Assembly (NCBI RefSeq): GCF_907165195.1 | Contig: NZ_OU015584.1 | Location: forward strand, 434,001 to 498,000 | Source of the DNA: Parvicella tangerina | GTDB taxonomy: Bacteria; Bacteroidota; Bacteroidia; Flavobacteriales_D; Parvicellaceae | Reading direction: 5' to 3' | Length of the DNA stretch: 64,000 nucleotides | Part shown: positions 34,603-41,314 of the stretch, piece by piece | Layout: every line of letters starts with the position of its first letter | Position numbering within the stretch: position 1 is the stretch's first letter | The notes under the pieces: generated by a model | Databases searched by the model: none | Told to the model about the DNA's origin: nothing | Seen by the model: only the letters and a program-made list of their open reading frames with translations | Translations under genes and position numbers: made by a program

Positions 34603-35847
34603 TCATCTGAATATCCCGAAGAATGTTTTTAAAACCAATTTTAGGTCGAGTAGAAATGATTGGTTTTGAATATACTTTTGGTTGAGTTGAAGCTTAGCTG
34701 GCATGACCTCTTCAATATACGTTTTTTCTGGATCATCAGATTTGCCCAGAAGTTCATTTTCATCGATATACTCAATGGAAGCAAAGTCCGTTAATCCTGG
34801 TTTGACGGATAAAACCTTTAGTTGTTCCTGGTTGTAGAGTTCAACATATTTTCTGACCTCTGGACGAGGACCAACCACGCTCATTTCTCCTTTTAAGATA
34901 TTGATCAATTGAGGAAATTCATCCAGCTTGAACTTTCTCAGGAAATATCCTATTTTGGTTATTCTGGGGTCTCTCCCTCCAACCGTAATTTGTCCTTTAG
35001 ATTCAGCATTCGGCTTCATAGTTCTAAACTTAAATAAGTCAAACGGTTGCTGATGAAGACCTATTCGTTCCTGCTTGAAAAAGACGCCTCCTTTACTTGT
35101 TAAAAGGATCAAAAGCGCAATTAGGATAAAGAAAGGAAGTCCCAAAGTCAAAATAATTAAGGAGAACAGGATGTCGAAGGTTCGTTTCAAAGAAATCCCA
35201 TTATCAAATTGATTAAGTTTTGGGTTTAACCAGTGGTAGGTCAGTAAGGTGCCTAGTGTTCCAATGATTGTCCCTAAGAAGACATCCTCAACAAAGTGTT
35301 GGGATAAATATACACGGGAGAAGGAAGCGAGAATTGCAAGGCCAGCAAAAAGAACTCCTGTCCATTGAAGTCGTTTATTGAATATTAAAGAGAGCAAACA
35401 GAAGATGCTCATGGCGGAAGTCGTATGTCCACTCGGAAAAGAATGGTCACTTTTCATACTCTCAAAGGGTAATACATGGTGTCCGCCTTCGTAATGAAAG
35501 TAGTCCCATAGCACCAGCAACGGTCTTTCGGCATCAGCGAAAACGAAAAGCTTCAGACCATGAGTAACTCCAGAAGTGATCAAAAAAGCAAATAAGGCAA
35601 TGTAGCCGTATTTCTCTTTCCAGATGAAAAGAACAATAATGATAAGCACAGCGGTGAGTCCATCCCCGATATGGGTGATATAAGGGAATAAACGATCCCA
35701 GAAATCACTGTGAAATTGATTAATGTAGATGTGTCCTTCTATTTGATCAAGCTGAATAAGAAAAAGCCCTGAGATAAGCAAAAACAAGCTGATTATTCCG
35801 AAGAATACCCAACTGTTTTTTATGGTTGTTAAAAGGTCTTTTTGCAT
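34603..35847 (-). CDS. PAP2 phosphatase fused to a polyprenyl-phosphate sugar-phosphate transferase
   Basis: A 414-residue membrane protein made of two enzymes (residues counted from the ATG at 35847). Residues 1-205 form a PAP2 phosphatase with several transmembrane helices and the motifs KLFVFADAERP (99-109), FPSGHTT (137-143) and SRVYLSQHFVED (177-188). Residues about 221-414 form a WcaJ/PglC-type phosphoglycosyl transferase: KRTFD at the membrane helix, KFRTMK (273-278), the catalytic Asp-Glu in KLDEFPQL (309-310) and VVGPRPE (325-331). The transferase starts glycan assembly on undecaprenyl phosphate; PAP2 enzymes recycle undecaprenyl diphosphate. A GTG at 35853 is possible but the ATG fits the promoter. 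Confidence 0.88.
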   Translation of the reverse strand: MQKDLLTTIKNSWVFFGIISLFLLISGLFLIQLDQIEGHIYINQFHSDFWDRLFPYITHIGDGLTAVLIIIVLFIWKEKYGYIALFAFLITSGVTHGLKLFVFADAERPLLVLWDYFHYEGGHHVLPFESMKSDHSFPSGHTTSAMSIFCLLSLIFNKRLQWTGVLFAGLAILASFSRVYLSQHFVEDVFLGTIIGTLGTLLTYHWLNPKLNQFDNGISLKRTFDILFSLIILTLGLPFFILIALLILLTSKGGVFFKQERIGLHQQPFDLFKFRTMKPNAESKGQITVGGRDPRITKIGYFLRKFKLDEFPQLINILKGEMSVVGPRPEVRKYVELYNQEQLKVLSVKPGLTDFASIEYIDENELLGKSDDPEKTYIEEVMPAKLQLNQKYIQNQSFLLDLKLVLKTFFGIFR

Positions 35848-35852
35848 GCCCA

Positions 35853-35880
35853 CAAATGTAAGGTTTTAATCACTTCGCAA
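35853..35880 (-). promoter_or_regulatory. Promoter of the PAP2-transferase fusion gene
   Basis: Minus strand TTG (35880-35878), a 17-bp spacer, TACATTTG (35860-35853). The -7 box ends 5 bp before the ATG at 35847, so the transcript should be leaderless. Confidence 0.6.
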
Positions 35881-35924: not shown

Positions 35925-36506
35925 ATGAAAAAGAAAAATCCAGCTAAAAAGAAAAGTGACTTGATTTTCTGGGGTGTAGCTCTGGGTTTTCTGGCGTTTT
36001 TATTCCTTACACCATGGGGGTTTAAATTTCAGTCTTATTTAAGATCTTGGATGCTGTGGTCTCCAGACACTGAAGAAAGCGCAATTCTTGATCAAAAAGA
36101 TCAAGTGATAGGGTACGACTGGATGATGATCTCTGATCAGGGAGAGGAAGTTTATATTAGTGATTTCGATAAGCCGATTTTTTTAAATTTCTGGGCAACC
36201 TGGTGTGCTCCGTGCAGAGGGGAAATGCCTTCAATTGTAGCTTTGAGAGAGAAATATGAGGGAAAAGTAGATTTTGTTTTGGTGAGTCCATCGGACAATC
36301 TTGAGAAAATTCTATCAGCTAAAAAAGAGGAAGGTTGGGATTTTACGGTATATCAAAACGGAAGTCAAATTCCAGAGAATTTAGGGTTTGAGGTATATCC
36401 TACTACCTATATCATTGACAAGAATAAGCAGATCAGGTATAAGTTTGAAGGGGCTTATGACTGGGATTCTGAAGATGTTCATATGATGTTGGATGAATTA
36501 CTTTAA
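35925..36506 (+). CDS. Membrane-anchored TlpA-like thiol-disulfide protein
   Basis: A 193-residue protein with a Lys-rich N-terminus, one transmembrane segment (about residues 13-31, LIFWGVALGFLAFLFLTPWG) and a thioredoxin-fold domain facing the periplasm. Active site NFWATWCAPCRGEMPS (CAPC at about 103-106); cis-Pro strand EVYPTTYIID. It is probably a reductant for envelope thiols or cytochrome maturation. The start at 35925 directly follows a -7 box. It is divergent from the PAP2-transferase gene. Confidence 0.85.
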   Translation: MKKKNPAKKKSDLIFWGVALGFLAFLFLTPWGFKFQSYLRSWMLWSPDTEESAILDQKDQVIGYDWMMISDQGEEVYISDFDKPIFLNFWATWCAPCRGEMPSIVALREKYEGKVDFVLVSPSDNLEKILSAKKEEGWDFTVYQNGSQIPENLGFEVYPTTYIIDKNKQIRYKFEGAYDWDSEDVHMMLDELL

Positions 36507-40526: not shown

Positions 40527-40859
40527 ATGAAAATGAAAGAAGCAACGTACACGTTTGTATCTGTTTCAACAGCGAAACAAGGTATGCTTGACGAATTAAT
40601 CGAAATTGCATCAGGACCAACACGAAAAATGGATGACAAGGTTCCTGGATTATTGGCCTACCAAGTGAGTGTGGATAAGGACAGAAATTCAGTAATTGTC
40701 TGGGCCACTTTTGACACAAAGGAGTCTCTTTACAATTTCTTAGAGACAGAGCAAGGAAAAGATGACCACGGTGAAAATGAAAGCATGGAAAGTATTGCCA
40801 CTTTTCAAATGTATGACTGTGAGCCAGTATCCGCACGTTTAGAACTAAAGGAAAATTAA
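40527..40859 (+). CDS. Antibiotic biosynthesis monooxygenase (ABM)-fold protein, cytoplasmic
   Basis: A 110-residue ferredoxin-like dimeric alpha/beta-barrel protein. Pattern YTFVSVSTAKQGMLDELIEIASGPTRKMDDKVPGLLAYQVSVDKDRNSVIVWATFDTKESLYNFLETEQGK fits ABM/quinol monooxygenase-like domains. It has no signal peptide. A paralogue with a lipoprotein signal follows after 2 bp. Such proteins oxidise quinols or bind reactive ligands without cofactors; the substrate is unknown. Control by the divergent MarR gene is likely. Confidence 0.75.
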   Translation: MKMKEATYTFVSVSTAKQGMLDELIEIASGPTRKMDDKVPGLLAYQVSVDKDRNSVIVWATFDTKESLYNFLETEQGKDDHGENESMESIATFQMYDCEPVSARLELKEN

Positions 40860-40861
40860 TC

Positions 40862-41314
40862 ATGAAGAAACTATTAATCGGAATCATTGCTTTGTCAGCA
40901 ATTGTAACATCTTGTTCTCAAGCTTCTAATGGAGAACACAATGAAGAAATTGCAAATGCTCAACATGATGCACATCATGACAATATTGATATGAATTCTA
41001 CCTATACTTTCATGTCAATATCCACTGCTAAACCTGGCAAGCTGGATGATTTAGTTAGAATCGCCTCAGAACCAAGTGAATTGATGGATGAGCATCTGGA
41101 TGGTTTAATAGCAAGACAAGTAAGTGTAGATACTTCCCGAAACTCAGTTGTTGTATGGGTGGCATTTGATAACAAGGAAACTCTATACAATCATTTAGAG
41201 ACGGAGCAAGGTAAGAAAGAGCATGGCGACCAAGCAGAAATGGACTCGATAATTGAAACATTCACTATGTACGACTTGTCACCACAGTCGCAAAGACTGA
41301 TACCTAAACATTAG
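40862..41314 (+). CDS. ABM-fold lipoprotein, paralogue of the preceding gene
   Basis: A 150-residue protein. The lipoprotein signal MKKLLIGIIALSAIVTSC (Cys at residue 18) is followed by a His/Asp-rich linker (HNEE...HDAHHDN) and a domain plainly homologous to the preceding protein: YTFMSISTAKPGKLDDLVRIASEPSELMDEHLDGLIARQVSVD, then NKETLYNHLETEQGKKEHGD. It looks like a tandem duplicate retargeted to the envelope, so the pair would treat the same compound on both sides of the membrane (inference). The His-rich linker might bind metal. Confidence 0.75.
   Translation: MKKLLIGIIALSAIVTSCSQASNGEHNEEIANAQHDAHHDNIDMNSTYTFMSISTAKPGKLDDLVRIASEPSELMDEHLDGLIARQVSVDTSRNSVVVWVAFDNKETLYNHLETEQGKKEHGDQAEMDSIIETFTMYDLSPQSQRLIPKH

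Follow-up and report, generated by a model that had tools for sequence, protein, structure and literature searches.

A gene joining a PAP2 phosphatase to a small monotopic phosphoglycosyl transferase in Parvicella tangerina

In the 64,000-nucleotide stretch of Parvicella tangerina DNA analysed here (the window, positions 434001-498000 of the one-contig, 3.98 Mb genome G000), a single minus-strand gene encodes a PAP2 phosphatase followed by an initiating phosphoglycosyl transferase (PGT), and the same full-length fusion occurs in two further genomes of the genus. The explanation preferred here is that of a real fusion in which a PGT initiating the glycan of a distant cluster is coupled by proximity to an extracytoplasmic PAP2 carrier phosphatase; taken as a whole, the case for it is evenly poised, and such confidence as it commands rests on function and not on a single origin of the pairing. 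Glycan pathways compete for a limited, common pool of undecaprenyl phosphate (Und-P), and the fusion, together with its unfused or differently placed relatives, would allow a direct test of whether one pathway is able to provide for its own carrier. Besides, the switch of partners from GT2 and GT-C to PGT offers a clue to the role of a Bacteroidota PAP2 family.

The fused gene and its conservation

The first-pass annotation had described one chain made of a PAP2 phosphatase and then an initiating PGT, and this is borne out by an open reading frame unbroken on the minus strand (34603-35847 with an ATG start, 34603-35853 with a GTG start) in which both Pfam domains score above their cut-offs. 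On the 416-aa reading, PAP2 matches residues 85-210 at 70.1 bits (cut-off 27.2), placing this half in the PAP2 superfamily, and Bac_transf matches residues 223-415 at 200.5 bits (cut-off 27). The features are as follows:

34603..35847, minus strand: fused gene, PAP2 phosphatase plus small monotopic PGT, 414 aa from the ATG (GTG at 35853 possible), with full-length relatives in G001 and G002
35224..35601, minus strand: PAP2 domain (PF01569 match), the whole helical fold covering about 35200-35847
35425..35433, minus strand: PAP2 motif 2, Ser139-Gly140-His141, invariant in 26/26 rows
35284..35319, minus strand: PAP2 motif 3, S177-R178-X5-H184-X3-D188, invariant in 26/26 rows
35191..35232, minus strand: linker (residues 206-219), without conservation of sequence, the frame being kept in the three fused genes
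34609..35187, minus strand: PGT domain (PF02397 match), with Asp309-Glu310 at 34918-34923 and Pro-Arg-Pro at 34861-34869
35925..36506, plus strand: TlpA-like thioredoxin-fold gene, divergent from the fusion, named by eye and found near PAP2 in several relatives too

The fused gene looks monocistronic, being flanked by the divergent TlpA-like gene and, at its other end, by a convergent plus-strand gene; the TlpA-like gene probably marks the older PAP2 locus.

Catalytic motifs had been reported as kept in both halves, and residue counts made on separate PAP2 and PGT alignments (26 and 32 rows, respectively) agree. In the numbering of the 414-aa protein, K99, R108-P109, S139-G140-H141, S177-R178, H184 and D188 of the PAP2 half are invariant in 26/26 rows, and D309-E310 and P327-R328-P329 of the PGT half in 32/32. 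PAP2 motifs 2 and 3 are PSGH and SR-X5-H-X3-D, both present in the fused protein (26/26 rows), and the canonical spacing of motif 1 is K-X6-RP. In the present set, the residues of motif 1 (K99, R108-P109) are invariant and spaced as K-X8-RP in 24 of the 26 rows, with X7 in the other two. The C-terminal half combines the Bac_transf profile, the Asp-Glu dyad and the Pro-Arg-Pro motif of the small monotopic PGTs. An alignment (A1) that pooled rows having PAP2 alone with rows having PGT alone was misaligned and therefore dropped.

The two other fused proteins, from G001 and G002, are 61 and 63% identical to that of the window. Among the three genes, pS reaches 0.80-0.85 in both halves, i.e. synonymous sites are saturated, while amino-acid identity is 47-56% for PAP2 and 69-72% for PGT; with a dN of 0.36-0.45 against 0.20-0.22, PAP2 is the faster-evolving half. 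The linker (14-16 aligned residues) is 12-21% identical, yet the frame is kept in all three genes, a combination that neither chance nor assembly error would produce. An artefact of assembly or gene calling, the outcome that would have overturned the first-pass annotation, could draw on the unconserved linker and on the occurrence of two separate genes in one sister genome. Against it, three separate genome records share the fusion at the divergence just given, the frame has been kept despite saturation, and G000 consists of a single contig, so that an artefactual junction deserves practically no credence.

Distribution of the architecture

Within the family, the fused gene was found in 3 of the 39 genomes searched, all belonging to the window's genus, for which four genomes were covered. 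In the order, 295 of 399 genomes (those of the family among them) gave matches at 1e-44, and of the matches listed only G000, G001 and G002 were fused; at the level of the phylum (395 genomes), 11 matched at 1e-50 and G000 alone was fused, with at most four candidates scored per genome in both searches. None of the 1005 matching plasmid records had a single place covering 80% of the protein, and no fused locus occurred among 13 loci from a set of genome contigs, L028 and L029 (below) included. The nearest named relative, a Cryomorphaceae MAG (L028), carries the two-gene form and is probably the same as G003, the fourth member of the genus. A long ORF ending in PAP2 in Hymenobacter (L029, 4744-6579) was considered as a second fusion and set aside as spurious, since it seems to result from reading through a frame that does not code. 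These searches reach close relatives, and fusions involving more distant PGTs or PAP2s would escape them. Within that scope, the architecture was not seen to be widespread, in line with the first-pass annotation, which had not taken it for a standard one.

A survey of the monotopic PGT superfamily was reportedly published by O'Toole et al. in PNAS in 2021, and a pairing with PAP2 may be listed there. That survey lay outside the literature searched, in the available parts of which no PAP2-PGT fusion was found (including PMC10942596, PMC10653937, PMC12550135, PMC12826051, PMC11127046, PMC3989065 and PMC6581854). PGTs fused to other functional domains form a recognised class, the Bi-PGTs, in which the functional domain is joined to the N- or C-terminus of the monotopic PGT core (PMC10942596, in the part available). 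The protein described here likewise carries a functional domain and a PGT core in one chain, as read from the sequence and with the activity of the added domain predicted; it differs in that the partner is a PAP2 integral-membrane phosphatase. PAP2 as a partner of PGT would thus be a new pairing within the known Bi-PGT class, seen in one genus only among the genomes searched.

Gene neighbourhoods in relatives

The surroundings of PGT orthologues were read at 22 loci, window included. The two domains are fused at three, and at five they are encoded by separate PAP2 and PGT genes whose overlap, stop codon included, ranges from 1 to about 20 bases, namely in G003 and in four genomes of a second genus (G010, G034, G023 and G030). 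A DegT aminotransferase gene adjoins the PGT gene at eight loci and stands two genes off at two more (G012 and G019), often together with flippase-like, Wzy/ligase and glycosyltransferase genes. The remaining four loci (G032, G059, G043 and G057) have neither neighbour. In the other listed relatives, PGT orthologues are single-domain. The link between PAP2 and PGT is not obligatory: two members of the second genus, G027 and G032, have a PGT without an adjoining PAP2 (the contig piece of G017 is too short to tell).

Several minor features accompany these loci. In L012 and L013 (from G027 and G032), the genes flanking PGT are, as judged by eye, adenosine-deaminase-like on one side and, on the other, polyprenyl-diphosphate-synthase-like and convergent. 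At three loci of the second genus (L066 8638-9581, L067 1604-2547 and L068 8841-9784), genes for 188 and 127 aa stand between a thioredoxin-like gene and PAP2-PGT, and by eye their products resemble SiaB/SiaC-like signalling proteins. In G108 (L078, 6030-7201), two different small PGT genes lie in tandem downstream of a DegT aminotransferase gene, their products being ~57% and 36% identical to the PGT of the window.

Around PAP2 orthologues, 9 of the 11 loci read show the strict order GT2 - PAP2 - ArnT-like GT-C; the genes are rearranged in G045 and both partners are missing in G006. The ten loci with the block (L082, 5124-8278, and nine similar ones) come from relatives within the order. The best NCBIfam match of the GT-C is the lipid IV(A) aminoarabinosyltransferase, under cut-off, and the block has the look of a module for polyprenyl-phosphate-linked sugars that encloses a putative lipid phosphatase. 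In the two genera bearing PAP2-PGT, no GT-C orthologue was found in any of the 11 genomes (ten of them 57-97% complete, G000 99.8%): two gave no match at E 0.001, and in the other nine the best hits reached 23-30% identity across 134-379 of 581 residues. At a threshold of E 1e-30, GT2 was found in one of these 11 genomes (G023). A thioredoxin-like and/or dihydroorotate dehydrogenase-like gene is found near several PAP2 loci and several PAP2-PGT loci alike; as these genes flank both, they suggest that PGT moved to PAP2 and not the reverse.

Phylogeny and origin of the pairing

The PAP2 tree gathers the fused proteins in one clade (99/96), joined by G003 (95/91) and then by the second genus (93/92). 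In the PGT tree, built on 34 rows and 197 columns, the PGT of G003 falls among those of g2 (94/82), that of the fused G002 protein joins the second genus, g8 (90/70), and G000 and G001 are unplaced. The two trees thus conflict, at nodes with support under 95, and a single origin of the pairing finds no support in the PGT tree. The PAP2 tree fits one fusion after G003 had split off, or later splitting in G003; the discord of the PGT tree could come from weak signal or from separate movement of PGT. The fusion most likely arose from a pair of neighbouring genes that already overlapped.

The PGT domain and the glycan it may initiate

A model computed from a PGT-rich alignment (A3; m3bafd3f6c3ba) has PglC (8e37) as its best match, with a TMt of 0.78, and thus adopts a PglC-like fold. 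The absence of a glycan cluster next to the fusion, pointed out from the start, holds for positions 24000-46000 of the window. In G000, the orthologue of the DegT aminotransferase (66% identity) lies at 636 kb, about 166 kb from the fusion, and this distance makes the lack of an adjoining cluster fit relocation. Its cluster comprises genes for a flippase-like protein, GT2, Wzy_C, GT4 and an ABC transporter; the flippase-like protein was named by eye and is 40% identical to that of a relative, and the piece of it compared with Pfam, clipped at the end of the stretch read, gave no match. No PGT was found in the 31 kb read around it. The aminotransferase is present in 10/10 genomes checked in the two genera (partial in G023), and seven aminotransferase regions read there, two of them contigs under 8 kb, gave no PGT match. 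Across the whole genome of G000, PF02397 has one other match over cut-off (a 466-aa frame) and a 35-residue match below it. Because the cluster lacks a PGT and there is only this one other match above cut-off, the fused PGT is probably its missing, WcfS-like initiator; alternatively, this role could fall to the 466-aa PGT or to one of the polytopic type.

Regarding the first sugar, similar pairs of PGT and aminotransferase occur in Parabacteroides (55.8 and 47.9% identical, respectively), Fusobacterium vincentii (55.4 and 50.3%) and on a Shigella sonnei plasmid (46.8 and 35.4%). In the available part of one report (PMC3989065), WcfS of Bacteroides fragilis is the Und-P FucNAc4N phosphotransferase, and a three-enzyme route to UndP-linked FucNAc4N is proposed for E. 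coli Sonnei. From the resemblance to these pairs and the role of WcfS, FucNAc4N would be the best guess; the best NCBIfam profile of the aminotransferase is PseC, under cut-off, and other aminated sugars are therefore possible. As in the WcfS type, relatives have a small PGT gene beside a DegT aminotransferase gene. In the window, by contrast, the PGT is fused to PAP2 and in G000 the aminotransferase gene is far off, the comparison with WcfS being drawn from gene neighbourhoods and from identity to the PGTs listed above.

The PAP2 domain and its likely substrate

The PAP2 half was modelled from alignment A2 (me1e460494d22) with ten-residue mean pLDDT values of 82-98 over residues 1-210. As no single model was good in both halves (PAP2 coming out well and PGT poorly from A2, and the other way round from A3), the placing of the domains relative to each other was not read. 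The model superimposes on LpxE (6ebu) with Z 19.9 and an rmsd of 2.1 over 162 residues, at 25% identity and a TMt of 0.84, ahead of the PgpB enzymes of Bacillus (Z 18.1) and E. coli (Z 16.9); by sequence too, the best solved-structure match is the LpxE of Aquifex (E 5.1e-8). The predicted fold resembles that of LpxE, and fold alone gives no specificity. LpxE and PgpB share with the fused protein the PAP2 fold and its motif residues, and differ from it by identities of at most 25%, by the C-terminal PGT of the latter and by its wider first-motif spacing. Among PAP2-type NCBIfam models, only YbjG, SepP and PgpB match, at 26-32 bits for cut-offs of 229-261, and the protein is therefore not filed as an equivalog of these undecaprenyl diphosphate (Und-PP) phosphatases. 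The functions first assigned to the two halves thus stand as domain identities, while the Und-PP substrate attributed to PAP2 is unproven, given these scores and LpxE as nearest fold.

In vitro, hydrolysis of C55-PP by Aquifex LpxE is about 1.8 times faster than that of lipid A, and the enzyme complements E. coli devoid of C55-PP phosphatases (PMC6581854, in the part available), so that likeness to LpxE fits carrier and lipid A alike. G000 has one BacA gene and three other PAP2 matches (one below cut-off); the fused PAP2 therefore need not be a main Und-PP phosphatase. Und-PP is nonetheless the favoured substrate: the old partner GT2 and the new partner PGT would both use Und-P at the inner leaflet, which favours carrier supply.

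Two other readings of the PAP2 half have to be weighed. It may be an LpxE/LpxF-like phosphatase of lipid A, stemming from a lipid-A-modification block (GT2 - PAP2 - ArnT-like), the fusion being a positional accident devoid of carrier coupling. LpxE is indeed the best solved match by both sequence and fold, PAP2 stands with GT2 and GT-C at 10 of the 11 PAP2 loci (nine in strict order, one rearranged), and the under-cut-off GT-C match points to lipid A; the chemistry suggested by old partners such as GT2 and ArnT-like GT-C would free Und-P, not Und-PP, and this agrees no less well with a lipid A phosphatase. On the other hand, in the two PAP2-PGT genera GT-C was not found in 11/11 genomes nor GT2 in 10/11, PAP2 persists beside or inside PGT at 8 of the 22 PGT loci, and the action of LpxE enzymes on C55-PP is compatible with carrier recycling, all of which leaves a lipid A phosphatase unlikely, though still a serious rival in view of the ArnT likeness of the old GT-C partner. 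Alternatively, PAP2 could mainly anchor or stabilise PGT in the membrane, its phosphatase activity being incidental: it is N-terminal to PGT like the four-helix bundle of large PGTs (PMC10942596, in part), which may have such a role there, it evolves faster than PGT by the dN values above, and the PGT orthologues of the other listed relatives are single-domain. A mere anchor would, however, be expected to lose some of the catalytic residues, all of which are kept in the three fused proteins, and this role is considered rather improbable.

Topology and proposed mechanism

Averaged over 26 PAP2s, Lys+Arg/Asp+Glu counts are 2.5/0.2 for the N-terminal segment, 1.7/0.1 for the second loop, 2.3/0.5 for the fourth and 2.3/1.2 for the C-terminal segment; the long active-site loop shows the reverse (2.8/4.5), and the first (1.2/1.1) and fifth (0/0) loops have no lean. 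By the positive-inside rule, these charges predict an extracytoplasmic PAP2 site with PGT joined on the cytoplasmic side. PAP2 and BacA sites are described as lying outside the cytoplasm, with Und-P flipped back by DedA or DUF368 proteins (PMC12826051, in part). Direct channelling between the two active sites was set aside, as they would lie on opposite faces of the membrane, and any coupling of recycling to re-use therefore needs a translocation step. The proposal that one chain couples carrier recycling to re-use accordingly survives in part: a functional link is backed by relatives with overlapping neighbouring genes and by PGTs located in glycan clusters, whereas direct hand-over is at odds with sites on opposite faces.

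In the preferred explanation, i.e. proximity coupling of the two enzymes, the PGT half would load a sugar phosphate onto Und-P at the inner leaflet, from a donor that is probably an aminated UDP-trideoxyhexose, e.g. UDP-FucNAc4N, and the partner functions (aminotransferase, flippase-like protein, glycosyltransferases and Wzy/ligase) would be supplied from the cluster about 166 kb away. Outside, the PAP2 half would most likely act on Und-PP freed by glycan polymerisation or ligation, and a translocase, for which one DedA-family gene is present, would flip the carrier between the PAP2 and PGT sites. The benefit of tethering would lie in proximity and 1:1 co-expression at one membrane spot and not in a common active site. 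What the analysis shows is the fusion itself, its conservation, the neighbourhoods, the modelled folds and the topology read from charges, whereas the substrate of PAP2, the identity of the sugar and the gain from tethering are inferred. A bolder version is a self-contained carrier shuttle, in which Und-P would cross the bilayer along a path formed jointly by the helix bundle of PAP2 and the membrane helix of PGT, one chain hydrolysing outside, moving the carrier in and recharging it; it is very improbable and, if true, would provide a private carrier pool for one glycan pathway.

Elsewhere in the window, two adjoining plus-strand ORFs of 110 and 150 aa (40527-41314) look like a tandem duplicate, sharing TYTFVSVSTAK / TYTFMSISTAK, and the second begins with a signal-peptide-like segment.
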